NCBI GenBank assembly: GCA_030424715.1
Contig: JAUHWH010000003.1
Coordinates: 194,148-258,147, forward strand
Reading direction: 5' to 3'
DNA: 64,000 bases
From: Bdellovibrionia bacterium
GTDB taxonomy: Bacteria; Bdellovibrionota; Bdellovibrionia; Bdellovibrionales; JAGQZY01
The notes beneath the pieces are model-generated. The model ran no database searches. It had not been told where the DNA came from and worked only from the letters and a program-made list of their open reading frames with translations. Position numbers and translations under genes: made by a program. Position 1 is the first letter of the stretch; each line of letters opens with the position of its first letter. Shown here in pieces: positions 13,408 to 46,624 of the stretch.

Positions 13408-14337
13408 TCATTCTCCTTTTTGAATCACACTGTAGTAAATCGGGCCCCAGCCGTCACGGTCGGGCAAGAACTGTTGCCCAAACTCGGTTTTCTCTGATGG
13501 GCCAATGGGATCAAGCTCAAGAATGTCGATCTCATTTTTTTTACGCTTGATCAGTTTTCTTATGACTTCGTCATTCTCGTGGGGAGAGATCGAGCAAGTG
13601 CTATAAACAATTCTCCCACCCGGTTTTAAAGCCATAAATGCCGAAGACAACAGCGAGTACTGTCGAATTCCAAAACTCTTGGTTCGCTTTACTTTCCAAG
13701 TTTGCAGTTCGGACTTCTTGTGAACCACGCCGCGCTCACCGGAGCAGGGAGCATCGAGTAATATACGGTCAAAGTCTTGCTTTTTATTGAGTCCGATAAT
13801 GGACCCATCGACGCCGCGGATTTTTACGATGGACCTGACTTCTTTCGGCAAATAGCGCTTGAAAACGCTCATCATGCGAAACTTACGTTTGGCCGACATC
13901 TCGTTGGCCACAAATCGACCACTCAAGTCCAGGCACTCCCCTTCTTGAGCCGCTGTTAGGCTTTCTAACAATACCAAGCTTTTGCCCCCTGGTGCGGCGC
14001 ACATATCGAGGACGGCGTCTCCCGGCTGCACAGCGAGACTCTGGGCCGCAATAATACTGGCCGGGTCCATCCGGTAGTAAGGCAGCATGGGGGTATCGAA
14101 GAGGCCCAGATCAAAGCTTTCATTGATCTCAAAACAATGGGGTAAAAACTCGTGAGGGGCCCCAATGCCCTCCTCTGCAGAAGCCTGCGCTTGTTCTTGC
14201 CGAAAGAACAGATTGCGCCGAGCCACTTTTTTATCGTCTTTTAAAAGAGCATCGTGGATTCCAGTCCAGCGATCACCGTAAACTGAAGTAAAGTATTCAT
14301 TGAAAACGACAGTCCCGTCGACAGATTTTTTACTCAT
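13408..14337 (-). CDS. NSUN/RsmB-family RNA (cytosine-5) methyltransferase, NSUN3/4-like
   Basis: A class I SAM-dependent methyltransferase predicted to make 5-methylcytosine in RNA. The SAM motif DMCAAPGGK is at residues 111-119. The two family Cys are in DAPCSGERG (Cys198) and YSTCS (Cys248). The stretch YYRMDPASIIAAQSLAVQPG before motif I resembles, from memory, the animal mitochondrial NSUN3/NSUN4 branch more than RsmB, RsmF or RlmI. The RsmB N-terminal NusB-like domain is absent. The ATG overlaps the stop of the upstream mscS-like gene (ATGA), so it is the last gene of a four-gene operon. The target, probably rRNA or tRNA, is not determinable. Confidence 0.82.
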   Translation of the reverse strand: MSKKSVDGTVVFNEYFTSVYGDRWTGIHDALLKDDKKVARRNLFFRQEQAQASAEEGIGAPHEFLPHCFEINESFDLGLFDTPMLPYYRMDPASIIAAQSLAVQPGDAVLDMCAAPGGKSLVLLESLTAAQEGECLDLSGRFVANEMSAKRKFRMMSVFKRYLPKEVRSIVKIRGVDGSIIGLNKKQDFDRILLDAPCSGERGVVHKKSELQTWKVKRTKSFGIRQYSLLSSAFMALKPGGRIVYSTCSISPHENDEVIRKLIKRKKNEIDILELDPIGPSEKTEFGQQFLPDRDGWGPIYYSVIQKGE

Positions 14338-15164
14338 GGACGCTCGCTGCTCGACTCAATCTTGATCGGCTGATTGATCTCCACTCGGTGGGTGATCGGC
14401 TCCATGCCTGAGGCCTTGACAGCACGATGAATTTCTTTGGGGAACTCAGATTGAAAGGTCAAAAAATCCTCAGACGTTGACCAAACTCTAAAAATGACTT
14501 CGGTGTGGTTTTCTTTAAACTCGCTGACATAAAAATAAGGTACGGGCTCGTCAAGAGCCAATCCGTTGCGTCCGGCCACATCTTTAAAAATCTCTTCAAG
14601 ACGAGTCAAACTATCCCGACTGGATAAAAGATATTTCACATCCAAGCGACGTATGGGAAAAAAGCTCACATTGCTGACCGAACTACCAATCACAATCTCG
14701 TTAGGGATCCTAACCATCCGATTGTCCAGTGTCCGAAGAGTCAGTGAGAGCAAATTACGTGACACCACCTCTCCCTTAAAGTCGTTCACCTCGATAATAT
14801 TGCCCACCACAAACGGACGCTCAAAAACCAAAAACACACCACTGATTAAATTAGAGATAGGCGTTCGGGCGGCAAAACCTATAGCCAAAGTCATAAGACC
14901 CGTGGCGCCGATTACGACCTTCATGTCCACCTTGATCAGGTTTAAGAACAGCACAAATAGGATAAAGTTGAAACTGTAAACAAATATTTTTCGGCCACTT
15001 AAAGCCTTACGCGGATCTTCTAGACTCTGGATGGCAAGATGAAAAATCCAATCTAAAATCTTCAGCACCAGTTGCCCAATCAGAAGGATTGCAATTCCGA
15101 TAATCAAATTGCGCCAAGGAAAGCCGTTTTGAATGGTTAATAAAGCTGTTAGAAGTTCTTCCAT
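14334..15164 (-). CDS. Small-conductance mechanosensitive channel (MscS family)
   Basis: An inner-membrane channel that opens under membrane tension to release osmolytes. The 276-residue protein has three N-terminal membrane segments. The last forms the pore helix, with the glycine/alanine-rich ATGLMTLAIGFAARTPISNL, followed by the beta domain (ERPFVVGNIIEVNDFKGEV, RIPNEIVIGSSVSN). The C-terminal alpha/beta domain is complete. One base separates it from the DUF432-like gene upstream and it overlaps the RNA methyltransferase gene downstream by four bases. Confidence 0.87.
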   Translation of the reverse strand: MEELLTALLTIQNGFPWRNLIIGIAILLIGQLVLKILDWIFHLAIQSLEDPRKALSGRKIFVYSFNFILFVLFLNLIKVDMKVVIGATGLMTLAIGFAARTPISNLISGVFLVFERPFVVGNIIEVNDFKGEVVSRNLLSLTLRTLDNRMVRIPNEIVIGSSVSNVSFFPIRRLDVKYLLSSRDSLTRLEEIFKDVAGRNGLALDEPVPYFYVSEFKENHTEVIFRVWSTSEDFLTFQSEFPKEIHRAVKASGMEPITHRVEINQPIKIESSSERP

Positions 15165-15165
15165 A

Positions 15166-15981
15166 TTATCTCATTATCTCGGTGGTCGAAGTGAAAAGAG
15201 TTTTTGGTATTTTCTCACGTGGCTGCTGCACGACCTGCAGATCGCCCTCTGTATCTTGGGGAGGGAAAATCTTTAAATCTCGCAGGCGCTTGTTCTTGTC
15301 TAATCTTACAGACAAAGAGCTGGTCACAAAAAGCCCCCTATTGTCTTGGTAAAGCGTGAGGTAGTTAACGGGGATCTTCAATTTCTCTATAGGAATGGGC
15401 TCCGTTGAGCTGTTCTCCATATAAAGATGAGTCAGGGCTCGATGGGGGCGAAACGGCAAATTTTCTTCAATAAGGGCAGCGTGAATCTTGGTAAAGTAAC
15501 ACAACTGACCCATCGTAGGAGACTCACCAAACCAGGTTTTCACACGATGCAAGACAGGGATCTCATCAATGACCAACCCAGAATGCTTATCCAGGAGGCG
15601 CACACTCATTGGCGTGCTCAAAAAAATCTTGGCCTTCTCGCCTGGTAAAACCATAAAGGTGGTGTCGGGCTTTACCACAAAAGGCAGCTCTCCTAGGCAG
15701 GGCAACACCTGCAACAAGGGCTCGTTGTCAGAATAGGCAAAGCGCTTCTCGGTTAGCAGATTTTTGGGATACATCCCCGTGAAAGGGTATTGATAATGGA
15801 AAGACGAATCCAGCCAGTCGTTAGAAGTCATCCAACGCACACGGATCTCAGAGGTGCTTTTTTCCAGATAAAAATCCAAGGGACCAAAGCGAAGATGAAA
15901 GCTTTCACCATCTTTAAGTTCGAGATCAGTCAAGAAGACCTTGAGCTCTTCGGCTTCATTTCGTTTCAATTTGGGCTCCAA
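15166..15981 (-). CDS. DUF432-like protein
   Basis: About 272 residues, mostly beta-strand in character, with FHLRFGPLDFYLEKS near the start and no signal peptide or membrane segment. From memory it resembles DUF432, a family I associate mainly with archaea and with MscS neighbours; this is recollection, not a search. The start is uncertain. The frame is open to a GTG at 16026, deep inside the upstream gene. I use the TTG at 15981; another TTG at 15969 overlaps the upstream TGA as TTGA. MscS begins one base after its stop, so the two proteins may act together, perhaps as a channel regulator. Confidence 0.55.
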   Translation of the reverse strand: MEPKLKRNEAEELKVFLTDLELKDGESFHLRFGPLDFYLEKSTSEIRVRWMTSNDWLDSSFHYQYPFTGMYPKNLLTEKRFAYSDNEPLLQVLPCLGELPFVVKPDTTFMVLPGEKAKIFLSTPMSVRLLDKHSGLVIDEIPVLHRVKTWFGESPTMGQLCYFTKIHAALIEENLPFRPHRALTHLYMENSSTEPIPIEKLKIPVNYLTLYQDNRGLFVTSSLSVRLDKNKRLRDLKIFPPQDTEGDLQVVQQPREKIPKTLFTSTTEIMR

Positions 15982-18005
15982 TCGGATAGGATCACACGAC
16001 TCCCTTTCACCTTTGGCCGTATACACCCAACGAGGGCGGCGTGGCTATAACCGATTTGCCTTAAATCTTGCAAAGCTTCACGCCAATGCTCTGGTCGCAC
16101 ACTAAACACGAGACTTCCCTGACTGAGAGAATCCCACAAAATAGCATTGGTTAAAGAAACATCATCTTTTTGAAAAGCGACATCACTCTGAATCCGAGTC
16201 CAATTGATATCTAATCCTGGATGTGAAACCTTTTCACCTATCAAGGGATCGACCCCTTCCCAACGTGGCACTTCTCGAAAATTAACCATCAACTGCTGAT
16301 GTGCCGGCAACTTTTGCAAGCAGTGATACAGAAAACCCCATTCTTCTATAAGCACGGGGGCACTCATCCCCCATTTATCGGTAAATGCCAATAGCTGTTC
16401 CATATCCGACACCAGAGGCTCATTGATTGTTTTTTGAATCCAGGTTGAATCAAAACGATCGCTCAAACGCCCAGCCCACAAAAATCCAAACCCCAAGGGG
16501 CGAGTCATCAAAACATAGTCATGGGGCTGAAACTTCTCTTGCTTGTCAGAAACGACTTCACCGCCCATGGTGACATTGAGGTGCCAGTGTTTACCATCAA
16601 AGGTATCGCCACCATCGATTTCAATGCCGTGCTTGTCAGCAACGCCTTCAATGGCCCGAAAAGTGGACTCAAAAATATGATTTAGCAAATGGTCTCTTTC
16701 TGCCGGGAGGGTCAAACTAAACCGGAGTTGTTTGGGTTTCACGCCACGAGACAAACTTTTTAAGATGGCCGTTTCCGTAATCTTAATGGCCGATAAAGCA
16801 AAACTGCCCCACGAATTGAATCCATTGAATGAGTTCAGTCGAAAAGACCGAGCCCCTTCATTAGAACCAGATATCACCAGCCCCTGCCATGGTCGACTCA
16901 TATGCTGAGCTTGGAAAGATAAAGCCTCATGAAGCTGGTGACGGCTTGTCTCGAGAACCTCGATTTTTTTCAAATTTTTTAAATCCGATTCTTGGTAAGA
17001 CCACCAGTTTTTTGTGACTTTTAAACTGTCGACTTTCTTTTTATCCCGGCAAGACAGCAGAGGCGTGTCGGCATTTTCTCGAAACAAATTTTGTCTTAAC
17101 ACGCTGGCCACTTCGCTCCCCTCCAGCGCTCGCACTTTGAGGCTTTCTGTCTCGAACTGAACGTTGTCACCAGTCAAAAAAATCTGGCCCAGCCCCTGTA
17201 GCTCACGAGACACGAAAATGGTCTGAGAATCGCCCTGAAAAATTTTGCCTAAAAAGTCAGAACTGCGAAAGTGACTGCAGGGGATCAAAACGTCATAGCT
17301 GAGCGTCGTTCCATCAACGAGTTGCAGCAGATGGTCTCGATTTTTGTCAACCATCGCGCCATAGACCATGCGCACGCCGGCGTTTTTAAGGGCCTCTTGT
17401 TTTCGCTCTTTTGAGGTTTTCAAAAAACGATTCTTCTCTAACACCTCATCTTGTAAAATGATGATGTCGCTGGATTCGGCACCCCCACTCAAACGGGCCT
17501 TAATTGCCACAGCTAACTGGGCTGACATTTTATTGAATCCACTTAGAATAACTCGAACCTCGCGGGGGCAGTGTTTGTGAACCTCCGCAAAGAAGCTCTC
17601 CATAGAGTCGAGAAACACATAGGGGTTGCCAGGGTTGATGGTTGTGACGGCCGGAATCGGCTCCCTGCCAAGCAGGGTGGGTTGCGTTTGAGTCTCAACA
17701 GAGAGACTGTGGTATTTCAAATTACCAAACTTCCTCAGCTGTAGAACCTGGTCTTCTTTAGCAATGCTCAGACAGGTGTCCTCTAAAAAGTAAACGCCCT
17801 TGCGCTGGCATGCCGTCCATAGATCCAATTGTGCGTCCGCCACCGAAATCTTTTGCAGGAGAGCGGGAGCCAAGAAGTCCGAGGGGAACACTTTAATATT
17901 TTGAGCCACCAACACGACAGGACGTTCCGCCATTTGTTTATTGGTCAAAGATTGAATCACTCGGTAGTGATACTCACCACCGCCCACTAACACTATGGGT
18001 TCCAC
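15966..18005 (-). CDS. NDH-like/SelD-like fusion protein, apparently degenerate
   Basis: A two-domain protein of about 679 residues. The N-terminal half resembles the NDH-2-like oxidoreductase half of known NADH dehydrogenase-SelD fusions. It has the FAD loop VLVGGGEYH, and LQGLGQIFLTGDNVQF followed by VRALEGSEVASVLRQNLF matches the usual LQS..VFA.GD...KAGV.AVRQ region. The second nucleotide motif is replaced by SGFNKMSAQLA, without the glycine cluster. The C-terminal half follows selenophosphate synthetase (GGDTFDGKHWHLNVTMGGEV; LMTRPLGFGFLWAG), but I see no active-site Cys/Sec-Lys segment or conserved Asp. The GTG at 18005 has AAGGGAG five to six bases upstream; a GTG at 18011 directly abuts it. 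First gene of the operon. Confidence 0.7.
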   Translation of the reverse strand: MEPIVLVGGGEYHYRVIQSLTNKQMAERPVVLVAQNIKVFPSDFLAPALLQKISVADAQLDLWTACQRKGVYFLEDTCLSIAKEDQVLQLRKFGNLKYHSLSVETQTQPTLLGREPIPAVTTINPGNPYVFLDSMESFFAEVHKHCPREVRVILSGFNKMSAQLAVAIKARLSGGAESSDIIILQDEVLEKNRFLKTSKERKQEALKNAGVRMVYGAMVDKNRDHLLQLVDGTTLSYDVLIPCSHFRSSDFLGKIFQGDSQTIFVSRELQGLGQIFLTGDNVQFETESLKVRALEGSEVASVLRQNLFRENADTPLLSCRDKKKVDSLKVTKNWWSYQESDLKNLKKIEVLETSRHQLHEALSFQAQHMSRPWQGLVISGSNEGARSFRLNSFNGFNSWGSFALSAIKITETAILKSLSRGVKPKQLRFSLTLPAERDHLLNHIFESTFRAIEGVADKHGIEIDGGDTFDGKHWHLNVTMGGEVVSDKQEKFQPHDYVLMTRPLGFGFLWAGRLSDRFDSTWIQKTINEPLVSDMEQLLAFTDKWGMSAPVLIEEWGFLYHCLQKLPAHQQLMVNFREVPRWEGVDPLIGEKVSHPGLDINWTRIQSDVAFQKDDVSLTNAILWDSLSQGSLVFSVRPEHWREALQDLRQIGYSHAALVGCIRPKVKGSRVILSDWSPN

Positions 18006-18118: not shown

Positions 18119-18745
18119 CTAGTCTTTGATTGAAAAAAAGGCATCAAGGGCCATGGTCATCTTTTTAACGTATAGGCTGGGTAGTTTTTTGGTTTTATGA
18201 GGGTCAGTGGCCAGCATTTTCACAAAAATTCCCACGGCATATTCATGTATCATCTCGGTCACCGTCTCCGTATTCAGTCCACTGGTGAGCGCTCCTTCAC
18301 GTTTGGCTTGCAAGACATAACGATGCAACCGTTCGGTCCCCATGCGAAAGGCGCCAAGCCCGCCGTCCTCCATACTGCTGTAGTAGTAGGTTAATAGGAT
18401 AATCTTAGCTTCATTGGGGTTGTGGTAACCCCAGTTGAGGTTCTCGACACAGTGGGTGATTATGCAATCTCGCCCATTCATAGAGGGTTTTATTTTTTGA
18501 TCCACCCACTGATGGTTGCTAAAACTGACATATTTGCGGACCGCCAGCAATAAATTCTCTTTATCACCAAAGTGCTTGAGGATGAGGGGGTGTGAGGTTT
18601 TGGCCCCCTTTGCAATTTTTTGCAAAGTCACGGCGCTGTAACCCTTATCACTAAACAGGCGTAAAGCGGTTTTCATGATTCTGAGTTGGGTTTCTTGCCC
18701 TTTTGATAAAACTGAGTCTCCAAACCAATTCCATTGATTTTCCAT
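18119..18745 (-). CDS. TetR/AcrR family transcriptional regulator
   Basis: A 208-residue DNA-binding regulator. The N-terminal helix-turn-helix shows ALRLFSDKGYSAVTLQKIAKGAKTS-like sequence, broken here as ALRLFSDKGYSAVTL and ILKHFGDKENLLLAVRKYV. The C-terminal ligand-binding domain is helical and variable, so the inducer is unknown. AAGGGG lies eight bases before the ATG. It is divergent from the peptide-binding lipoprotein gene with about 106 bases between, the usual arrangement for local control; an ATGCT...AGCAT arm pair near 18790-18822 could be its operator. Confidence 0.85.
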   Translation of the reverse strand: MENQWNWFGDSVLSKGQETQLRIMKTALRLFSDKGYSAVTLQKIAKGAKTSHPLILKHFGDKENLLLAVRKYVSFSNHQWVDQKIKPSMNGRDCIITHCVENLNWGYHNPNEAKIILLTYYYSSMEDGGLGAFRMGTERLHRYVLQAKREGALTSGLNTETVTEMIHEYAVGIFVKMLATDPHKTKKLPSLYVKKMTMALDAFFSIKD

Positions 18746-18851
18746 GGCTTATACCCCTTTTCTCGCGGTCACTCTTGCCGACAACGCCGAGATGCTTTTA
18801 TAGTACCATTATCGAGCATTTTTAAAGATTCGCAACGGAGAGCTAAAAAAA

Positions 18852-20438
18852 GTGAAGTTTTGTCATTTTTTTGATACAAAAAATGTATCATTCTTATCCT
18901 TAATCCTTTTTTTAGCGCCTCTTTGCTTATCCCATTGCACTGACTCAGCCCCTCTCGCACAAAAGAATAAGCACTCACTGACTGTCAGTTTTGGTCCAGC
19001 ACCTAGCACTCTCGACTGGCACCTGACAACAGATTTCCGATCAAGCACCGTCAACATAAACACCATGCAAGGCCTGTTCACCTATGATCTTGATAGCAAC
19101 AGCGTGTCCGTTCGCCCTCAATTGGTGAAAACCTTCGAAAACAAGAGCTTCAAAAAGTGGCAATTCTGCCTACGTGCTAGCGTCCAGTGGTCTGATGGTC
19201 GTCCGCTACTTGCCCAGCACTTTGTCGATGGATGGCAAAGACTTTTAGCTCCAGAGACTGCATCGCCTAGCGCTCATCAGTTTTTTCATATCAAGGGGGC
19301 TAAAGAATTCAATTCTGGAAACCTCGGCTTTGAGCAGGTGGGTATAAAGCCCACCTCATCCCAATGTTTTGCAGTGGAATTACAAACGGCAGACCCCGAC
19401 TTCCCCAGCCTGCTCAGTGCGCCTTACACCTACCCCATCCGAAAAGAGATAATCGCCGCGCACCCCAACACTTGGACTCATCCGGAGAATTGGGTTGGAC
19501 TGGGGCCCTACAACCTCGCCAACGGTGATCTAAAGCAAACTTTACTATTGGAGAAAAATGCCAAGCACTGGTCTAAAAAACCTTTCATTGAAAACATAGA
19601 GATCCAATGGATCGAAGACAAAAACACGGCAGTTCGTCTGTTTAGAAAAAAGAAGATAGACTTAGTGAAGTCTCCTGATTTTGATCAGGTCCAGGCGTTA
19701 AACCTTGAGAAGTATTATGTAACACAGAAGGGGGTTGGGATTTATTTTTTGGGATTCAACCTAACAAGAACTGGGGTGCAAGATCGTGCTCTCCGTCAAC
19801 GCATCAAGAGGTCCATTGACTACACAAGGTTGCAACAGCTCTTTGGCCACGACGTCACCCCCACAAAAACCATTGTTCCTTGGTCGATTTTTAACGACAC
19901 CCCTCTGCCTGTGAAAACCACGAACGCACCAAGCTCAAAGTCCTCTCAGCCTCAAAAACTGGTGCTCTACTCCAACAACAGTCCTCTTCATAAAAAGACC
20001 CTAGAACATATCAATTATGTTCTTAAAAAGAATTATGACATTTCGTCAGAAATTAAACTGTCCGATGCCGCCACCTATTTTTCTGATTTACGTTCAAAGT
20101 ATTCTGCGGACTTATATCGCCTCTCGTGGACTCCTGCCCAGATCACACCCATGGGGTTTTTAAAAATTTTCGCCAAAGACTCGGCCAATAACTTTAGCCA
20201 CTATCGAAGTGATACATTCAACAAACAGCTATCGCAATACTGGAAAGTATCAGATCCGAAGCAACGCCGAAGCATCGAAAAAAAGCTGGAACAGCAACTG
20301 CTCCATAACGACTTGGTAGTTATTCCTTTGTTTCGCCACATTCAAAGCTACCTATTGAACAGTGAAAAGTTCGATTACACCCCTCATTTCTCAGAGCGCC
20401 TCGAATTCGCCCGCATCCTACCAACCGATCGACAGTGA
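18852..20438 (+). CDS. OppA-like peptide-binding lipoprotein (SBP_bac_5)
   Basis: A periplasmic extracytoplasmic solute-binding protein, probably for oligopeptides, normally feeding an ABC importer; no permease or ATPase genes are adjacent. It has 528 residues with a signal peptide and lipobox LSHC (Cys29). Family features follow: FGPAPSTLDWHLTTD, VNINTMQGLFTYD, WQFCLRASVQWSDGRPL, and GLGPYNLANGD near the middle. The GTG start at 18852 has ACGGAG upstream. The orphan status suggests it supplies a permease encoded elsewhere or acts in signalling. A TetR gene is divergently transcribed. Confidence 0.82.
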   Translation: MKFCHFFDTKNVSFLSLILFLAPLCLSHCTDSAPLAQKNKHSLTVSFGPAPSTLDWHLTTDFRSSTVNINTMQGLFTYDLDSNSVSVRPQLVKTFENKSFKKWQFCLRASVQWSDGRPLLAQHFVDGWQRLLAPETASPSAHQFFHIKGAKEFNSGNLGFEQVGIKPTSSQCFAVELQTADPDFPSLLSAPYTYPIRKEIIAAHPNTWTHPENWVGLGPYNLANGDLKQTLLLEKNAKHWSKKPFIENIEIQWIEDKNTAVRLFRKKKIDLVKSPDFDQVQALNLEKYYVTQKGVGIYFLGFNLTRTGVQDRALRQRIKRSIDYTRLQQLFGHDVTPTKTIVPWSIFNDTPLPVKTTNAPSSKSSQPQKLVLYSNNSPLHKKTLEHINYVLKKNYDISSEIKLSDAATYFSDLRSKYSADLYRLSWTPAQITPMGFLKIFAKDSANNFSHYRSDTFNKQLSQYWKVSDPKQRRSIEKKLEQQLLHNDLVVIPLFRHIQSYLLNSEKFDYTPHFSERLEFARILPTDRQ

Positions 20439-20590
20439 CGTTGAACAATGGCGGAGAGTCACAAGACTCAGAGTAAGGCCCCCAAATTGACTCATGACAA
20501 GTCGTGCCGAAAGGTGTGGCCTCTTAATGAGGTCAGTGAACCCCTCGTTTGAGCTTTTCGTTGGCCTCTTAATTGCTCTATGTAAAGGTT

Positions 20591-23500
20591 ATGCTACTGA
20601 AAACCTTTAAACTAACGAAATTTCTGTCTAGTCTTTATACAGCTGTCTGTCTGTTTTTGGCAGCCCTGCTGTTGTCTTGCCTGTCGCAGGCCCGAGACAC
20701 CTGTCAGATCTTAGTGGCTGGAGATCTTTCGAAAGCGGCTATGGTGGCCCTGGAGAGTTCGAGCCATCAAGATCCGCTGGATCTATCAGAAATGCCTTCG
20801 ACGAGTTTGATGCAAAATGAATCTCTTAAAAAGACCCTAGGTCAGTACGACTTTGTTGTGGTGCAAGATGCCGAAGACAGTTTTGGTATCTTTTTTACAG
20901 CGGTTGACCCCCTTAAATCAAACCAATGGCTGCCCCTGAAGACCGCTGTGACCGGATTCAGTCAATTTGCGGAGTTGATTAATTGTAAAATGCTCAATCG
21001 CAGAAAAAGATCAACCCTCTCCTCTCGGAAAGCGGCAAAAAGTTTACATCGAAGATTTCATAAAAAACCACGCCTCGGTGAAATGGCCTTGGGTGAGGCC
21101 CTGCTTAGATTGGAGTACTACTTTTTAAAGAACACCAGCGGCACCGATATTAATTTTTCGGAGACACTAAAAAAATATAGAGCCCTTGTCGGAGAAACCA
21201 GTAATATTGCTAAAAATATTCAAAGTCCAAACCGACTTTTCAAAGAGTGGGTCTCTGTCTTGGCGGCCGCCTATTCTGACGAAGGGGCCAATGTGAACTA
21301 TTGTGCTGAATCGACCATGATGATCGAGGCTCTGGCAAGGGGGTGTACGAATTGCATGGGAGAGACGCTACTTTTCTTATCCCTCTTCTCGGACTCTGAA
21401 TTCAAAGCTCCTACTGGCTGGGATTTATCAGTAGAAATGTTCTCTGATCATATCCGTCCCATCCTCTACAACGAGGAATCCGGCAAAATTTTTGATCTGG
21501 CTTACGGGAAAATTCAAAATCGCCGAGGCGCTATTTATCCCTGGATAGAATATATTCCTGCAGTTCTCTATCAACTCAAAGAGGTCGTGCATCCTGTCGA
21601 AACACAATCCTACGAAGGCAGTCACCAAAGGGTTAGCTACAAACCATGGGCCTGCCTCGGGTCTTTCAGTAATAAGACACCTGCCCGAGTCCAAATGCCC
21701 ATTGTCAGTGGGTACTATGCTTGTGGAAATTTCTCTCCCGATGAGCCACCTGAGGGAGAAGTCGATAACTCGAGTCGCATCCAACCACTGGATAGCGAGT
21801 CGAACAAAGACGGTGATCAAAAGGGCTCCGGTATTTTGGGGAACGCTCTGAACACCGCTAAAAACCTCCTCGGGAAGGCGGGCGACCACTTCGGTCGCCG
21901 ACGACACTTCAGGGACCGATTTGCGGTAGAGATGTTCTTCAAATACAAGAAAACCTTTGTCGAATCAGATAAAATTGTGATCGATAATTTCGAGGAAAAA
22001 AGCATTTCTCGCGAGCAATTTATCGGTCACTTCAATCGTCCAAGGCTCTTATCAAAGCTAGGTGTTGTTGAAACTGAGGATAAAGAAATGAACCTTTTTC
22101 TCGCCCGAGTGAACAAAGCCGACGAGTGTCGAATCTTGCCTCCTCTCATTCCATTGCTGGATCAAAAAGACAGAGCCATTCACAAGTCGCGATCTGAATT
22201 TGAAATTGAAATTTCCGACCAAGCTCTTTTCCAACAACTACGAGCCTTACCCAACGAAGACAGGTACTTCCATTACATCCAGTGGCTGGAGAACGAAATT
22301 GAGAAGGGCCTACCACTTCTTGCCCAGGCCTTCGACCGCGACAACCTCGCTGAAAGTTTGATCTCTCAGTCAAACCACTATGAAACCATTAGAATGTTAG
22401 ACAACCTTATCGTGGCATATTTTGAGGTGTACCAAAGAATTTCATTTTGCATCGACGATTTCTTTAATACGAGTTCAACGTATTCCCCCATACTACAGTC
22501 GTTTTCACTGATCCCTTACTATAGTGAAAAAATTCAATCCATCGTAACCTATCAAAGAAAGATCTCAACGCAACCCATGGCCTTTTTAAAGGCGATTATG
22601 GCAGCACAAGACCAACTATCTGAAATTGTGGTAACACCAATGCCATCCGGGTTGGATTCTTTCATGAGCATGGACTTGCTCGCTCTTGACTCTGACAAAC
22701 TGCAGCGTCCTGGTTTTTTCTACCAGGACTTTGTGGATTTCTTTCTTCTCAACAAAGAATACTTTTTTGCCCCACCTGAGACCGAGCGAGACGAGACCTT
22801 TGGCAAAGTCAGACCCTTTGTCCCTATTAAAATTCAACAATACCTAGAGAGTCAAAAAAAAGAACATAACTACGTCGAAGTCAATTTACCAAAACTCGGT
22901 TTTCAATGTGAGAAAGGTGACTTCGGTTACCAGCCACGAGGCCTCTTCTATATCTATTGTGGTGCAGAAGACTCAAACAGTGCTTTTTCACAATTGGAAC
23001 AGGGCCATCGAGATAAAATTGGCAATAGTAAAATGAATCAGAAAGGCTTAGATGACGAGGGTATAACCCGTGCTGTGGTCGACGATAAATTTAAAGAGTT
23101 ACAAAAATCAAAAAAAACCAACAAGGTGATACCCTCCGGAAATCCCGACTCACGAAACTATGTAAACTCTTTTCCCGAATCCACAGACCCTCGACAAGAG
23201 GTGCTCATCGACGTCAAGTACTGGCCCACCTTGCTCAATATATTGCGAGAAACGGTTGATCATGGGATTTACTCGGCTTCATTGCACCACCTGCAAAGAT
23301 CGACAATCGAGGATTATATGCTCGCCTACTACAACGGATTGGACAGATTTCCTTCTCCCAACGGCTTGTCCAGAAACATTTTTGCTTCCAAACCTCAGGA
23401 TCTGGTGAAATTTGACAGACGCGTTCTTGGTCAGTTCACCGGGTTGGGAGACACCCGAATCAACATCAATTACGTCACCCCTGGGACCAATAAAGTATCA

Positions 23501-23875
23501 AAACAGGATTTTATATCGACACTCGCCAGTGACGGCAGTGCAGAAGAAAAACTAGCAGTTCTGCTCGAAAAATTTCATTTAAGAAAAACCGAAGAACTCA
23601 ACACAAGAATCCCCCGCCCCTTCAACGACAATCACTTTAGAAAAGCCATTTTTTTGGAAATGGAGAACAAACTCAAAAGAGGATGGTCATGGAACGAAAG
23701 CCCCAGCAGTCGATTCAGAGATCAAGAAGCCTTTTGGTTTCATCGATCCTTTCTTCTTGAGCCACGCGTCGGCCAAAAAGACTGGCTCAACTCTGATCAT
23801 CGCACGGACGATGTTATATTTCACGAATCTGTGGAGCCCGCCGCATTCTTCAAACAATCGATCGAAGCATACTGA
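20591..23875 (+). CDS. Large exported protein with a possible transglutaminase-like core
   Basis: About 1094 residues. The N-terminus has a basic region and a hydrophobic segment (LYTAVCLFLAALLLSCLSQA) ending near QARD, a signal peptide or lipid anchor. Around residues 240-310 a Cys-containing helix (GCTNCMGETLLFLSLF, Cys255) is followed by FSDHIRPIL and KIFDLAYG. This spacing resembles the Cys-His-Asp layout of transglutaminase-like peptidases, but it is weak and unverified. The remainder is long and without recognised domains. The ATG at 20591 follows AAAGG only two bases away; a TTG at 20573 is an alternative. Confidence 0.6.
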   Translation: MLLKTFKLTKFLSSLYTAVCLFLAALLLSCLSQARDTCQILVAGDLSKAAMVALESSSHQDPLDLSEMPSTSLMQNESLKKTLGQYDFVVVQDAEDSFGIFFTAVDPLKSNQWLPLKTAVTGFSQFAELINCKMLNRRKRSTLSSRKAAKSLHRRFHKKPRLGEMALGEALLRLEYYFLKNTSGTDINFSETLKKYRALVGETSNIAKNIQSPNRLFKEWVSVLAAAYSDEGANVNYCAESTMMIEALARGCTNCMGETLLFLSLFSDSEFKAPTGWDLSVEMFSDHIRPILYNEESGKIFDLAYGKIQNRRGAIYPWIEYIPAVLYQLKEVVHPVETQSYEGSHQRVSYKPWACLGSFSNKTPARVQMPIVSGYYACGNFSPDEPPEGEVDNSSRIQPLDSESNKDGDQKGSGILGNALNTAKNLLGKAGDHFGRRRHFRDRFAVEMFFKYKKTFVESDKIVIDNFEEKSISREQFIGHFNRPRLLSKLGVVETEDKEMNLFLARVNKADECRILPPLIPLLDQKDRAIHKSRSEFEIEISDQALFQQLRALPNEDRYFHYIQWLENEIEKGLPLLAQAFDRDNLAESLISQSNHYETIRMLDNLIVAYFEVYQRISFCIDDFFNTSSTYSPILQSFSLIPYYSEKIQSIVTYQRKISTQPMAFLKAIMAAQDQLSEIVVTPMPSGLDSFMSMDLLALDSDKLQRPGFFYQDFVDFFLLNKEYFFAPPETERDETFGKVRPFVPIKIQQYLESQKKEHNYVEVNLPKLGFQCEKGDFGYQPRGLFYIYCGAEDSNSAFSQLEQGHRDKIGNSKMNQKGLDDEGITRAVVDDKFKELQKSKKTNKVIPSGNPDSRNYVNSFPESTDPRQEVLIDVKYWPTLLNILRETVDHGIYSASLHHLQRSTIEDYMLAYYNGLDRFPSPNGLSRNIFASKPQDLVKFDRRVLGQFTGLGDTRININYVTPGTNKVSKQDFISTLASDGSAEEKLAVLLEKFHLRKTEELNTRIPRPFNDNHFRKAIFLEMENKLKRGWSWNESPSSRFRDQEAFWFHRSFLLEPRVGQKDWLNSDHRTDDVIFHESVEPAAFFKQSIEAY

Positions 23876-23941
23876 CCGTTAAGATCTTCAAGTAAAAAGA
23901 CCACCCGTCAATGATAAAACTAAGGGGATTCTTTGTTGGGA

Positions 23942-25264
23942 CTAGAATCTGAATTGATAGCGAGTGGAGTCGTAATCGCCCTCTGAAGCCCGCCGAGAGT
24001 CAAATAGCATTTGCTCCAGAGCCTGCCAGCCAAAATCGGGCCCTTCTACCAGAAGCTCTTTTATAAGAATACGTTTGGCTGCGACATTAGGATCGTGACG
24101 ATCCACAATTGGCGATTTTAGCAGTACGTAGAGGGATCGGACCAAATCGAAGTAGGCCTGGGTTTTCGCTGGGCTACCTGTAGGAGCTTCATAGTAAGTC
24201 TGGCGATAAACACCGACGACGTGATTCCAGGTGTGCAGCCAGGCTTGCCAGCTTTCTATCAGGGGAACCGGCTCGGCCTCTAGCTTGTTGTTGAAATCAA
24301 TCAGTTGCTTTTCAATCTTTATAATTTGCGAGACATCCTCGGCTCGCCCCCCAGTAAGGGTCGCGGGATGTATGGGGCGATCAAAGTTTTTATAAATAAA
24401 CTCTTCTCCTGAAACCTTCAGGAGGACCATACCATCAGAGAATTGCAAGGGTTTAGCTTCACCTTTTGAATTCACCACCATGACCGGAGCCAACCCATAT
24501 TTGCGATAGTGGGGCACTAACTTGGGCCTTGCCACACCATAAATCTGCAAATCATTTTGCTGAATCACATCTGTCTTTTTAAAAACCCGATAGTTCATAC
24601 TGTTGTAATGAGCATCGAGAACAAAGGCAATGTTTGCCATGGCAGACTCTACGCCATTCACGAAATGCTTGGGGGCGACCAACAAGCCCAGCTCCCAAAT
24701 CGTTGCCCTCTTACCAAAGCGCCGCTCCGGAAAGGTGAATTCATAGACTCTCTCAATGGGTGTCCGTTCGCGACCGCCGGCCGGCGTGTTCCACAAAATG
24801 CCGTGATTTAAAGTTTCCGTCGATCCATCGAAGATGCGAATACCTGAAACTTCGCCCTCGCTTAAGATCTCTACGTATTTGGTTCTCAACGGATCGAGAG
24901 CATCATCCCTTGCCTTAAGCATGACCATGTCTCTAGGCTGGTAATGTCCAGAAGCTCCGTAAGCCTCAAACAACCCAGCAATTGCTTTTTGGGTTCGTGG
25001 ATCTATTTCGTTCTCTCGAAAAAAATGCATTTCGCCACTACGAACACCCTGCGGTGAAGCCGTTGACAGACGTGAGCCATAGCGAATAACTTGAAACACT
25101 TTTTGACAATGGAGCACCCCACCCGGGCGCGTCGGCGAAAGATCGATCTGTTTATCATGGAGCCGCAAGACCATATCGCTCGCTTTGACTGCGACTGAAG
25201 ACACCAAAAAGGTAGTCAGAAAAAGAGAAAAAATAGCATTTTCATGAGGAGCCAAAGGTATCAT
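23942..25264 (-). CDS. Exported hypothetical protein (440 residues)
   Basis: The N-terminus (NAIFSLFLTTFLVSSVAVKA) reads as a signal peptide. The mature protein is rich in beta-strand and charged helices, with no Cys pattern or metal motif. The C-terminus ends in YQFRF, the aromatic ending typical of outer-membrane beta-barrel substrates of BAM, but the body does not look like a barrel. The ATG at 25264 is preceded only by TAAAG. It is convergent with the 1094-residue gene. No family recognised. Confidence 0.6.
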   Translation of the reverse strand: MIPLAPHENAIFSLFLTTFLVSSVAVKASDMVLRLHDKQIDLSPTRPGGVLHCQKVFQVIRYGSRLSTASPQGVRSGEMHFFRENEIDPRTQKAIAGLFEAYGASGHYQPRDMVMLKARDDALDPLRTKYVEILSEGEVSGIRIFDGSTETLNHGILWNTPAGGRERTPIERVYEFTFPERRFGKRATIWELGLLVAPKHFVNGVESAMANIAFVLDAHYNSMNYRVFKKTDVIQQNDLQIYGVARPKLVPHYRKYGLAPVMVVNSKGEAKPLQFSDGMVLLKVSGEEFIYKNFDRPIHPATLTGGRAEDVSQIIKIEKQLIDFNNKLEAEPVPLIESWQAWLHTWNHVVGVYRQTYYEAPTGSPAKTQAYFDLVRSLYVLLKSPIVDRHDPNVAAKRILIKELLVEGPDFGWQALEQMLFDSRRASEGDYDSTRYQFRF

Positions 25265-25381
25265 ATCTTTAGGTTTTTACAGGCACAGACTAGGAATTTT
25301 GAATATTCTCTAGGACTGTCAATGCATTAGTCAAGGTTTGCTGTCCCAGTATTAGTTTTTGCCCATTCTTCGCGACAGATC

Positions 25382-25450
25382 ATTCGGCTGCACCTCAGGG
25401 TGACAGTTACGTTGTTTCAGTTTAAGAGCCTTCGCTGAGCTCAGGAAGAC
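25382..25450. repeat. Two dispersed copies of a ~23-base repeat
   Basis: A 23-base unit at 25382-25404 begins ATTCGGCTGCACCTC and ends AGGGTGAC; a more divergent one at 25429-25450 begins CCTTCGCTGAGCTC and ends AGGAAGAC. They match the unit at 31481-31503 (CTTCGGCTGCGCCTC...GACGAC) that flanks the tandem array there. They lie between two minus-strand genes. Confidence 0.5.
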
Positions 25451-25463
25451 AATGTGACTAACT

Positions 25464-25494
25464 GGCTCCGTCTATCGAATAGACGGAGCCTTTT
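25464..25494. terminator. Strong hairpin, terminator-like
   Basis: A 12-base-pair perfect stem (GGCTCCGTCTAT with ATAGACGGAGCC, loop CGA) is followed by TTTT on the plus strand. The adjacent gene ends at 25498 on the minus strand, where no U-run would follow the stem, so it may end that transcript by structure alone or belong to a plus-strand RNA. Confidence 0.5.
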
Positions 25495-25497
25495 GTA

Positions 25498-25896
25498 CTA
25501 AGAGCACTTGTATTTGATTTGCCACTCTTTTTTCTGCAACGTTGTAGAGCTGGTGGCTTTACTGGGGTCTGTTCCGGCACTTGTTAATGGAATTCCGAAT
25601 AAGGAGCCCATCTTCTTGCCCTCGGTACCGGCTTTGCGTGTCTCGTTAGACTTGGTTTCAGTCCCAATCACCACTTCGCCTTCTTCAAGAACGGCGAATT
25701 TTTTAGCGCCACATGACTTACTCATCATGCCTTCTGCATGTTGACGATCTTGCTCATTATGATCGAGCTTGAGAGCGACCACCCCGCCCACTCGAGGCTT
25801 CATTTTGACCCTTCTCGCGTAAGGCTTGTAAGGCATCGCCTGACAACCTGCTAAAAATAGAACGGCTATTGATATTAAAAACACTTCTTTTTTCAT
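25498..25896 (-). CDS. Small lipoprotein of unknown function
   Basis: A 132-residue protein with signal peptide and lipobox LAGC (Cys18). The mature part has VVALKLDHNEQDRQHAEGMM, CGAKKFAVLEEGEVVIGTET, then a Thr/Ser/Lys-rich stretch and a C-terminal WQIKYKC. The two Cys after the lipid-modified one could form a disulphide. AAGGGG precedes the ATG. It is the third gene of a lipoprotein operon, 15 bases after the previous gene. Role unknown. Confidence 0.65.
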   Translation of the reverse strand: MKKEVFLISIAVLFLAGCQAMPYKPYARRVKMKPRVGGVVALKLDHNEQDRQHAEGMMSKSCGAKKFAVLEEGEVVIGTETKSNETRKAGTEGKKMGSLFGIPLTSAGTDPSKATSSTTLQKKEWQIKYKCS

Positions 25897-25911
25897 TATT
25901 ATCCCCTTTGT

Positions 25912-26532
25912 TTAAAAGCTAAAAAAGTATGCCCCGTTAAGTTGTGTTCCCGTAAAGTCGTTGTCGATACCTGAAATCAAACTACCCTCAAGAAACAGTC
26001 CCGAAGTGTCTCCAATTTTGACACCCAAGGATGCCGAAAGAAGGCCTCCGTCCCCTGGGTTCGCAAAGTCGCTACTGATGGCTCGAAAAATGTATTTCGC
26101 AGCCGTGTAAAGGCTGGTCATTTTTGCCACGTTGTAACTGACATACAAAGGCAAGATCAGGTCGATGATAGTCACCTTTTGGGTCACCGACATGGACTCG
26201 GACTCAAAATTGAGATAGCCCAAACCAAGACCGGTCGCCATGGCGAAGTCACCACTTTTCAAAAAATTGTATTTCATGTCCGCTGTTATGGAACCAATCA
26301 GAGCGAGTTTCAAACCCACATCAATATCATCCCACATACCCCGACGATAAGCGTATTCGATTAGCGGTAGGCTAATATCATCGCCCCCTACAAAATCGTC
26401 ACTGCTGTAAGTTCCAACACCCACGGCATGGGAGGATTCTCCAACGGGTAGCACTTCGGCGGTTTGCATCGTCGAGACACTGGCGCAGTGACACAACAAC
26501 AATAAAAGTCCAAATCCTATTATATTTTTCAT
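25912..26532 (-). CDS. Outer-membrane lipoprotein with beta-barrel-like body
   Basis: A 206-residue protein with a hydrophobic N-terminus ending LLLLLCHCASVS, a lipobox-like site with Cys14 or Cys16. The body alternates polar and hydrophobic residues with many Gly and aromatic positions, and ends in GAYFFSF, the C-terminal Phe typical of barrels. It begins TAEVLPVGESSHAVGVGTY. Middle gene of the three-gene lipoprotein operon. No named family. Confidence 0.6.
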   Translation of the reverse strand: MKNIIGFGLLLLLCHCASVSTMQTAEVLPVGESSHAVGVGTYSSDDFVGGDDISLPLIEYAYRRGMWDDIDVGLKLALIGSITADMKYNFLKSGDFAMATGLGLGYLNFESESMSVTQKVTIIDLILPLYVSYNVAKMTSLYTAAKYIFRAISSDFANPGDGGLLSASLGVKIGDTSGLFLEGSLISGIDNDFTGTQLNGAYFFSF

Positions 26533-26547
26533 TTCTTTGCTCTTTCG

Positions 26548-27039
26548 TTAAAAGGTTTCAATTTTAAGAGTCGAATAAATGGTGAGACAATCGTTGCCCG
26601 TTTCATAGGTGATGCGAAGCAAATGACGTTCTTTCGGATAAGCGACAAAGGTCTCGAAGAGTTTCAAGCTCTGTCGAGACAACACCCGACCGCTTTCGTC
26701 CACGATCAGCCAACTGACATCGCGATTCTTTGTGCACTCCCCGTCATAGATAGGCTCAAACTGGGCCAAATTCAGGTTCAAGCGCTGGTCGGCACGCAGT
26801 TCAAAATCGACGATTTGTTTACCAAAACCAGTGAACAAGGTGAAGTCGATAGCTTCATCCAACACGAGGGGCTGTAAACCAAAATAAGTATACTCTCCCG
26901 CAACGGCCGGCACGTTGAGAGGACGAATCGTCTTCTTAAAATTATTAGGACCCAACAGAGGTGGCGGTGCTGGCGAATCACTACTCACCGAACAGGCCGA
27001 CAAAAATACAAGCGTTAAAAAAGCCATAGCGAACTTCAT
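26548..27039 (-). CDS. Lipoprotein of unknown function
   Basis: A 163-residue protein with signal peptide and lipobox LSAC (Cys16), then a Pro-rich linker (SPAPPPLLGP) and a beta-rich domain with two Cys (GECTKN and NDCLTI) that could be paired. AAGGGAG lies before the ATG. It is the first gene of the operon with the beta-barrel-like and small lipoproteins; the upstream 455-base region carries the probable control sites. No family recognised. Confidence 0.65.
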   Translation of the reverse strand: MKFAMAFLTLVFLSACSVSSDSPAPPPLLGPNNFKKTIRPLNVPAVAGEYTYFGLQPLVLDEAIDFTLFTGFGKQIVDFELRADQRLNLNLAQFEPIYDGECTKNRDVSWLIVDESGRVLSRQSLKLFETFVAYPKERHLLRITYETGNDCLTIYSTLKIETF

Positions 27040-27494
27040 ACAAAAACTCCCTTCCTGGTCTATTGATTAGACCCTTCAATTAAAAATGAGGCTCCCTTAT
27101 TTCCCATAAGTAACATTTCATCAAGCTTTTTTTACATTTTGTAACTTTTAGGTCTTTGCATTGGTTTGTGCAACGTGACAAAGCCTGTGTTTAATAAACA
27201 GAAAGCCTGCACGTACCGATGAGCTATGCTCGGTTCTCATGTCACGAATGGACGGGAAATGAAAATTCTACCAAATCACTCTCAATGGGCTGAAATGCAG
27301 CCTCGCCATTGGTCTTGGTGGATAACAATCACTAAAATCCTTCCTCAACGCCAAAGGCTTTACCCTAAACGGAATGAGGAGATCGAGACCTTTCACCGGT
27401 TTCCATGCAATCATGTGAGAAGAAACTTTTTTTGACTTTCTTGTGGCATTCGATAGCCTGTCTCTACTAACAAATTTAATTTTACGGGGGACCT
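27040..27494. other. Long divergent intergenic region with a repeat-flanked palindrome
   Basis: About 455 bases separate the minus-strand lipoprotein operon from the plus-strand small lipoprotein gene. The clearest structure is at 27180-27209, described separately. A short plus-strand open frame at 27226-27435 has unlikely composition and no ribosome site. The region probably holds promoters for both directions. Confidence 0.45.
27180..27209. promoter_or_regulatory. Candidate operator: palindrome flanked by direct repeats
   Basis: TGTTTAATAAACA (27188-27200) is a perfect palindrome with one central base. It is flanked by AAAGCCTG at 27180-27187 and again at 27202-27209, 22 bases apart, about two turns of the helix. 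It lies in the centre of a divergent intergenic region. Confidence 0.4.
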
Positions 27495-27698
27495 ATGAAG
27501 TCGTTTAAATTTTTATTGCTTGCTGCTTTTCTTGTTGGAGCTACTGGTTGTGCTTACGGACACTCGCTTCGGGTAGGAAAAAACAAAGTTCTTGTTTTGA
27601 AAAATGATCATCTCCTTTTTGGAATCATGAGAAAGGCCCACATCTGCGATGTTACGCCATCAGGTCTCGCTAATTGCAGTGAAAAAGAAAACCCTTAA
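27495..27698 (+). CDS. Very small lipoprotein
   Basis: A 67-residue protein with signal peptide and lipobox (GATGC, Cys19). The mature part is short: YGHSLRVGKNKVLVLKNDHL, then an ICDV and ANCSEK Cys pair. GGGGGA precedes the ATG. A bidirectional terminator follows its stop. It is divergent from the lipoprotein operon and may share control with it. Function unknown. Confidence 0.6.
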   Translation: MKSFKFLLLAAFLVGATGCAYGHSLRVGKNKVLVLKNDHLLFGIMRKAHICDVTPSGLANCSEKENP

Positions 27699-27721
27699 TA
27701 TCCATTGAACATGGTTCGATT

Positions 27722-27753
27722 AAAAAAAACCGAGGTAACACCTCGGTTTTTTT
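27722..27753. terminator. Bidirectional rho-independent terminator
   Basis: CCGAGGT (27730-27736) pairs with ACCTCGG (27740-27746), with poly-A before and poly-T after. It can end transcripts of the small lipoprotein gene from the left and of the hmgA-DUF423 operon from the right. Confidence 0.8.
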
Positions 27754-27799
27754 ATGCCCATGGCAATTTTTATTTGAAATGAATAAACATCAAGACTCT

Positions 27800-28183
27800 C
27801 TAAATGATTGAGCTTTTTGTTCGGATCACTGCCAACGCAAAAAGTAACCAACCCACCATAAACAGGCTGCCGCCCACTGGTGTGATCATCGCGGCCACCC
27901 GCAGGTCCAATAGCACATAGATGTAAAGACTGCCCGAGAACAGAACAATGCCTAACAAAAAAGAGACGCCGGCCCACAAGCTCGACGACCATTTCTCCCA
28001 ATGGCTCCACAATCCTAAGCCTAACAAGGCAAGGGCATGAAAGCGCATATAATCGTTGGCCGTCGCTAACACGTCCATTTTGTCAGGCTCAAGAAACTCT
28101 TTCAGACTATGAGTACCAAAAGCCCCCAGCGCCACTGAAAGCAAACCTAAAACACAACCCCACAACAACCAGATGCGTCCCAC
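27800..28183 (-). CDS. DUF423 family membrane protein (YgdD-like)
   Basis: A 127-residue inner-membrane protein with four hydrophobic helices. The N-terminus (GCVLGLLSVALGAFGTHSLK) and the later GVSFLLGIVLFSGSLYIYVL and ITPVGGSLFMVGWLLFA are typical of DUF423, function unknown. Its GTG start overlaps the hmgA stop (TAGTG), so the genes are translationally coupled. No ribosome site of its own is obvious. Confidence 0.82.
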   Translation of the reverse strand: MGRIWLLWGCVLGLLSVALGAFGTHSLKEFLEPDKMDVLATANDYMRFHALALLGLGLWSHWEKWSSSLWAGVSFLLGIVLFSGSLYIYVLLDLRVAAMITPVGGSLFMVGWLLFALAVIRTKSSII

Positions 28184-45583: not shown

Positions 45584-46624
45584 TTAGAAATTCACCGTAA
45601 GACTAAAACTATCTTGTGGCACGATCACTTTGTAAACATCGTTGCTTGTCGAACTTTTTACATCCAACCAAACGTGATCTCTCAACGTCTGCCTAATACT
45701 AGCCTCGCTCTGGGCTTCACCCACGTTGACTTGATAAAGCGGACCTTGTCGATGTAGAAACTGCCCGTTAGCACCGGTGCGATGGACCCAAACGCCATTA
45801 CGACACTCCATCTGACGGGTAAAAGCGGTCGTCTGTAGAGTGTAATGAAACGAGCCATCTTGGCGAGGTACTTTATTCATGACCTGAGACGTCGCACTGA
45901 AGATTTGGTCTCGAACCCCACCCTCATCCACGAGAAGGCCCCCAGAAGAACCATCCTGCTTCAAAGCGCTTAGAAGACAAGATTGTCTTGGAGAGGGAAC
46001 GGCACCGGAACCACCGGAACCACCGGAACCACCGGAACCACCGGAACCACCGGAACCACCGGAACCACCGGAACCACCGGAACCACCCGAATCACCCGAA
46101 CCACCCAAATCACCCGAATCACCCGAATCACCCGAATCACCCGAATCACCCGAATCACCCGAATCACCCGAATCACCCGAATCACCCGAATCAATCGGTA
46201 AAGCATCTGCATCGGTAAACACTCTCAAGTTTATCTCGATCTCGTTATTGTCAGACAATCGAACGTAATAAGCACCTTCGTCTTCCACATTCAGGTTGTC
46301 GAAAATAATTTTATCGGACTCAATCCGAAAAGACGAGGGGCGATCAAAAGGAGAACGGACTTCTTTGATGTCGCTGCCATAGCTCGAAGTTCGAAAATTT
46401 TGACCGATATTAATAACCAGACGCTCTCCGGCTTTTTCATAAAGATTGAAAGAATCGCGGCCGTCGGCAACAGATAAGTCTCTCGTTTCGATATCTTGAG
46501 AATAGAGTGTCGATGAGTTTGAAAGCGTGGATCCGGCCATCTCGCCGCCACCGCAGTTCTGAAAAAGAACTAAAGATGCTAAGACAAAGACACCAAACGC
46601 TAATATGGATTTGTTAGTAGCCAC
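45584..46624 (-). CDS. QNCG-type lipoprotein with Ig-like domain and GDS/GGS repeat linker
   Basis: A 346-residue surface or periplasmic protein. The N-terminus ends LASLVLFQNCGGG, with Cys24 the likely lipid site. Residues about 60-125 look like an immunoglobulin-like domain (IIFDNLNVEDEGAYYVRLSD). A linker of about 20 GDS and GGS triplets follows, encoded by nine-base repeats. The C-terminal part (SGGLLVDEGGVRDQIFSATS, CRNGVWVHRTGANGQFLHRQ) has two Cys. The start is a GTG after GAGGGGGG. It shares its signal-peptide ending with the gene at 30913. Confidence 0.65.
   Translation of the reverse strand: MATNKSILAFGVFVLASLVLFQNCGGGEMAGSTLSNSSTLYSQDIETRDLSVADGRDSFNLYEKAGERLVINIGQNFRTSSYGSDIKEVRSPFDRPSSFRIESDKIIFDNLNVEDEGAYYVRLSDNNEIEINLRVFTDADALPIDSGDSGDSGDSGDSGDSGDSGDSGDSGDLGGSGDSGGSGGSGGSGGSGGSGGSGGSGGSGGSGAVPSPRQSCLLSALKQDGSSGGLLVDEGGVRDQIFSATSQVMNKVPRQDGSFHYTLQTTAFTRQMECRNGVWVHRTGANGQFLHRQGPLYQVNVGEAQSEASIRQTLRDHVWLDVKSSTSNDVYKVIVPQDSFSLTVNF
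46003..46194. repeat. Nine-base repeat tract encoding a GDS/GGS linker
   Basis: On the plus strand CCACCGGAA is repeated about ten times, changing to TCACCCGAA repeats in the second half. In the minus-strand gene it encodes (GGS)n and (GDS)n. Such tracts readily change copy number by slippage without breaking the frame. Confidence 0.85.

Follow-up and report, generated by a model that had tools for sequence, protein, structure and literature searches.

Introduction

Fusions of an N-terminal NADH dehydrogenase-like domain (NDH, TIGR03169) to selenophosphate synthetase (SelD, TIGR00476) have been described (PMC4561486), an NADH oxidoreductase has been linked to the supply of SelD substrate (PMC2432076), and a crenarchaeal family of SelD-like proteins has been proposed to have left selenium metabolism (PMC4210487). 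The subject of this work is a decayed relative of the NDH-SelD fusions, here called FUS, encoded in a 64,000-nucleotide stretch (hereafter the window) of the genome of a Bdellovibrionia bacterium (GCA_030424715.1, contig JAUHWH010000003.1; the genome is referred to as G000). FUS heads a set of four open reading frames (ORFs) that run end to end on the minus strand, from 13408 to 18005, and is followed, in order of transcription, by the genes of a DUF432 protein, a mechanosensitive channel of the MscS family and an m5C RNA methyltransferase. The make-up of this FUS-bearing operon suggests an undescribed regulator of an MscS channel.

Results

The most general feature of the locus, missed by the initial annotation of the window, is the pair formed by DUF432 and MscS, which is widely conserved and exists without FUS. 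A DUF432 profile finds homologues in 20 of the 369 genomes of the phylum set searched, and in 19 of these the next gene downstream, on the same strand, encodes an MscS channel (one of the 19 loci is cut by a contig end), with −4 to +15 bases between the two genes where their starts are clear. The single genome that departs from this (G132) also has the weakest of the homologues. Since MscS matches number only 1 to 11 per genome in the 17 genomes compared, adjacency by chance would be expected in about 0.1% of cases, i.e., about one in a thousand. A maximum-likelihood tree groups the 19 paired channels in a single clade (support 99/98) that excludes the 21 unpaired MscS proteins sampled from the same or related genomes, and in two genomes (G015 and G027) the paired channel is the sole MscS found. 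The pair is also present in Acinetobacter baumannii, where a DUF432 homologue (26% identity, E 3e-14), scoring below the Pfam cut-off, lies 9 bases before an MscS gene. This adjacency, together with the distinct clade of the channels and the recurrence of the pair in A. baumannii, means that DUF432 and a single MscS subfamily keep together in two phyla. The correlation of DUF432 and MscS distances (r 0.73) is confounded by species descent and is not counted as support. The word DUF432 is absent from the open-access literature searched, and its pairing with MscS is newly reported here.

Several observations accompany this survey. The A. baumannii homologue (CP035931.1, L099:4923-6671, MscS gene directly downstream) is annotated only as ‘hypothetical protein’; a tblastn search of plasmids found DUF432 only in Acinetobacter records, a contig scan of genomes with three DUF432 proteins returned G001 only (the genome introduced below), seven more diverse ones shared no stretch of sufficient conservation for such a scan, and PF04254, the Pfam family of DUF432, includes archaeal members, among them a match in Methanosarcina acetivorans. 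At the exceptional locus of G132 (L121) the DUF432 homologue is followed not by MscS but by a gene for a 220-aa protein that probably has a membrane helix, and in G109 (L120) DUF432 stands between two MscS genes that share its strand, of which the downstream copy alone belongs to the paired clade. The pairs of one family (f10; L028, L031-L035 and L041) adjoin a gene resembling polyphosphate kinase, an identity that Pfam confirms in L033, where Ppx/GppA is close by, and the pair of L029 adjoins a trehalose-phosphate synthase/phosphatase, in keeping with osmotic adaptation. G000 itself has eleven MscS-type matches in 3.1 Mb, the highest number in the 17 genomes compared.

In the window, all four ORFs and their junctions agree with the initial annotation, which had reported minus-strand genes with overlaps of at most four bases or a single-base gap. 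FUS and DUF432 overlap by 4 bases (TTGA), DUF432 and MscS are separated by one base, and MscS and the methyltransferase again overlap by 4 bases (ATGA). Such close junctions are a usual sign of translational coupling, which is how we read the four-gene set. The putative FUS start is most likely the GTG at 18005, a few bases past an AAGGGAG ribosome site, as the initial annotation had it; the start of DUF432, which it had left uncertain, is most likely the TTG at 15969, whose 4-base overlap with the FUS stop is also seen in G001. The window channel has the PF00924 beta domain (66.2 bits) as well as the PF21082 C-terminal domain (23.2 bits), and the two cysteine motifs of catalysis are both present in the methyltransferase, as DAPCSG (PC, motif IV) and STCSISPHEN (TC, motif VI). 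Scans for promoters and terminators came out close to what shuffled sequence would give and were not used.

The C-terminal half of FUS, used as a profile, detects 3 of the 369 genomes at 534-646 bits, the next-best matches, ordinary SelD-type proteins, scoring 60 bits or less, and in all three the DUF432-MscS pair lies directly downstream of FUS. FUS is confined to one family, whose other two genomes have neither FUS nor DUF432. The Bdellovibrionales metagenome assembly HKST-UBA04 (G001) has all four genes, with nearly identical junctions; in G003, which belongs to another genus of the family, FUS, DUF432 and MscS stand together and the methyltransferase is found 3 kb off, on the opposite strand. 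Upstream of FUS, G000 and G001 differ, with about 9.8 kb in G000 between FUS and the block that directly adjoins FUS in G001. As the order holds while the genes upstream of FUS change, conservation covers the operon as a whole and not what lies upstream of it. The 9.8 kb (18119-27800 of the window) encode a TetR regulator, a solute-binding protein and an 1100-aa protein without Pfam match.

The gene-order survey that the initial annotation had called for thus finds FUS-DUF432-MscS in a second genus. Its association of a pseudoenzyme with the channel holds to that extent; the m5C enzyme, which it had counted in, does not belong to the recurrent part, and the sensor or regulator role that it had suggested is a conjecture. 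The methyltransferase adjoins the operon only in two genomes of one genus and is unlinked in G003, for which reason it is probably a co-transcribed passenger, an RNA-modifying enzyme of the usual kind whose gene, in one genus, is on the same transcript. One could go further and regard all four genes as co-transcribed but functionally unrelated, with only DUF432 and MscS belonging together and FUS standing there by inheritance: FUS occurs in one family only, the methyltransferase has already come loose in G003, and unrelated genes are common in bacterial operons. Against this, the order and near-contiguity of FUS, DUF432 and MscS have outlasted the divergence of FUS to about 22% identity, with different genes upstream in G000 and G001, and within the family FUS and DUF432 are either jointly present (three genomes) or jointly absent (two). 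We regard this explanation as doubtful.

The profile libraries match FUS weakly but specifically (TIGR03169, E 1.4e-17; TIGR04369, E 1.8e-17; TIGR00476 selD, E 4e-9), and these matches lie far below all the curated cut-offs (64 against 310 bits, 62.8 against 700 and 36 against 125, respectively). Aligned by hhalign with the intact NDH-SelD fusions of four genomes of the phylum (G008, G257, G137 and G060), however, FUS gives a probability of 100 and an E of 1.3e-44 over 640 columns, which is decisive for its being a full-length homologue of these fusions, its two domains standing in the order seen there. The resemblance proposed by the initial annotation is thereby borne out. A SelD tree places FUS outside the clade of stand-alone SelD, with weak support, and is taken as a hint only; it contains one wrongly chosen row (L152, an MnmH-like protein).

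Residues were compared in an alignment of the three FUS proteins, the four intact fusions and E. coli SelD (the 3u0o sequence). The intact fusions have a CGGCGxK-type loop and share with E. coli SelD the metal-binding aspartates, an NA[LI]SD-type motif and TD[IV][TS]GFG. In all three FUS proteins the Cys/Sec-x-x-Lys segment is missing together with some 60 residues before it, and other residues are aligned with D51, D68, N87, D91 and D227 of E. coli SelD, i.e., with its four metal aspartates and a conserved asparagine. The GGH loop has become GGD in G000 and GGE in G001, and is gone in G003. In the oxidoreductase half, the GxG of the first glycine motif and the histidine that follows are invariant in the three proteins, the second glycine motif (for NADH) is lost in all of them, and GD, the distal FAD motif, is present in G000 only. 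Among these are the losses that the initial annotation had noticed, and the alignment confirms them; an intact SelD Cys/Sec and ATP site, which it had named as evidence to the contrary, was looked for and not found. FUS is, to judge by these residues, a pseudoenzyme for both ancestral reactions. On the other hand, residues atypical of SelD (RxxPRWxGVD, and LSDW at the C-terminus) are fixed in all three proteins, and these, along with the purifying selection documented below, the surviving first glycine motif and the change of GGH to GGD or GGE in two of the three, would suit an enzyme that has neofunctionalised to another chemistry and was kept in the operon. We find this alternative unlikely, given the loss of all SelD metal-binding aspartates, of the Cys-x-x-Lys segment and of the second glycine motif, the restriction of the distal FAD motif to one genome and the disappearance of even the GGD loop from G003.

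The FUS reading frame is uninterrupted in three diverged lineages (679-695 codons), where identity to the G000 copy falls to 39% in G001 (read from a putative TTG start) and to about 22% in G003, whose copy is equally distant from that of G001. When the G000 and G001 genes are compared, the share of differing sites is 35% for second codon positions and 66% for third ones, conservative amino-acid changes amount to 34% against 12% expected at random, and the C-terminal half is 46% identical, the N-terminal half 34%. From the uninterrupted frame, the codon-position pattern and the conservative changes, FUS is judged to be an intact gene under purifying selection and not a pseudogene. If FUS were a functionless remnant, still decaying, of a selenium pathway that has been lost, this would fit the absence of all known catalytic residues and the fact that FUS evolves faster than the three other proteins (39% identity to G001, against 49-62% for the others), but the signs of selection just listed weaken this reading to the point where we think it very improbable.

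No SelD, SelB or MnmH (selenouridine synthase) above cut-off, and no tRNA-Sec above the gathering score, was found in G000, G001 or G003, whilst five relatives, as positive controls, score above the MnmH cut-off. In the genomes with intact fusions MnmH directly adjoins the fusion, and for that reason the ordinary NDH-SelD fusion of the phylum appears to serve selenouridine. Four loci (L027, L093, L094 and L095) have intact fusions with GGCG[SGA]K adjoining MnmH, a selenouridine cluster in Bdellovibrionota. With intact fusions next to MnmH and FUS in genomes that have no selenium genes above cut-off, FUS is, on gene content, a protein that has left selenium metabolism, as the initial annotation had held. 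That it is nevertheless still a selenium protein, for which its full-length homology to the fusions might speak, is hardly credible when SelB, tRNA-Sec and MnmH are all below cut-off in the genome, and as a selenophosphate synthetase it is refuted by its residues, Cys/Sec-Lys and the metal aspartates being absent.

Coordinates of the operon and of the FUS motifs are collected in Table 1. Elsewhere in the window, positions 45584-46624 encode a lipoprotein-like protein in which (GDS)n/(GGS)n repeats form a long run.

Table 1. Genes of the FUS operon and sequence motifs of FUS, in window coordinates.
Feature	Positions	Strand	Remarks
FUS, decayed NDH-SelD fusion	15966..18005	-	679 aa from GTG 18005 (most likely start); 681-aa ORF from 18011
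FUS, first dinucleotide-binding glycine motif	17967..17987	-	VGGGEYH, kept; residues 9-15 of the 681-aa ORF
FUS, second (NADH) glycine motif	17520..17546	-	Lost, by alignment; LSGFNKMSA against IGGGAAGVE in relatives
FUS, SelD metal-site segment	16809..16835	-	NSFNGFNSW against [ST]xDGF/DFF in relatives; Asp lost, by alignment
FUS, counterpart of the SelD GGHS loop	16593..16619	-	IDGGDTFDG; His to Asp
DUF432 protein	15166..15969	-	267 aa; TTG start (most likely); PF04254 28.2 bits, above the gathering cut-off of 21
MscS-family mechanosensitive channel	14334..15164	-	276 aa; PF00924 E 2.9e-18; member of the DUF432-paired clade
RsmB/RsmF/NSUN-type m5C methyltransferase	13408..14337	-	309 aa; PF01189 E 6.9e-33, 114 bits

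Discussion

We propose that DUF432 is the partner of a clade of MscS channels and that FUS is a non-catalytic third component retained in the channel operon, a reading that we hold with moderate confidence. From its gene context, DUF432 would be a dedicated soluble partner of one MscS clade. As no signal peptide is visible by eye and a low-confidence prediction makes the protein beta-rich, a cytoplasmic partner of the MscS cage is the simplest reading; DUF432 would bind the channel physically and probably adjusts it from within the cytoplasm. FUS would descend from the NDH-SelD fusions of selenium-using ancestors, having lost both chemistries in genomes that no longer use selenium, and may have been kept as a translationally coupled, soluble third component of the channel operon, i.e., as a lineage-specific pseudoenzyme. 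It would most likely act as a non-catalytic regulatory or scaffold subunit, and may still bind a dinucleotide, a nucleotide or a flavin through its one remaining Rossmann motif.

Several points count against this proposal. FUS is known from three genomes of one family, and most DUF432-MscS loci are without it, so the pair does not need FUS. Both the DUF432-MscS partnership and the role of FUS are read from gene neighbourhood, which is not the same as interaction. Structure prediction, starting from alignments of two sequences, is of little help: the AlphaFold model of FUS is unusable (pLDDT 34) and was not used, that of DUF432 is poor (pLDDT 59), and a Foldseek search with the latter found no match in the PDB below E 0.001, so that neither model points to a binding site or an interface.

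It is tempting to go beyond the role of channel partner proposed here. DUF432 might, as a conserved accessory subunit, determine how the channels of one distinct MscS clade, present in at least two phyla, gate or stay closed, and in one Bdellovibrionales family the dead NDH-SelD might in addition have been recruited as a subunit that senses redox state or nucleotides, which would put the gating of an osmotic channel under metabolic control. This extension is speculative and we consider it rather improbable. Few dedicated soluble partners are, to our knowledge, known for bacterial MscS-type channels, and the adjacency of DUF432, whose function is undescribed, to one clade of them in nearly every genome that has it offers a concrete and testable role, in a clinically important genus as well. 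FUS, for its part, would be a clear case of a selenium enzyme that persists, apparently without catalysis, after selenium use has ended, and cautions that an annotation as SelD-related fusion need not mean selenium use.

Compared with the NDH-SelD fusions, FUS has the same two domains in the same order and the same length, and matches them along the whole 640-column profile, but has lost Cys-x-x-Lys, all the metal aspartates and the NADH glycine motif, belongs to a genome without selenium genes above cut-off, and adjoins DUF432-MscS instead of MnmH. TIGR04369 (NCBIfam fusion_not_SelD, ‘oxidoreductase/SelD-related fusion protein’) is, by its name, also a SelD-related fusion, from which FUS is set apart by a score far below the cut-off; no member above cut-off occurs in the 369 genomes, and no paper naming TIGR04369 was found in the open-access literature searched. 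The crenarchaeal SelD-like family shares with FUS a place outside selenium metabolism, as proposed for it (PMC4210487), but keeps its Cys and Asp residues, whereas FUS has none of them and carries a fused oxidoreductase half. The channel of the window, finally, finds its best NCBIfam match in the model of E. coli-type MscS, and yet falls in the separate clade of channels that are paired with DUF432.

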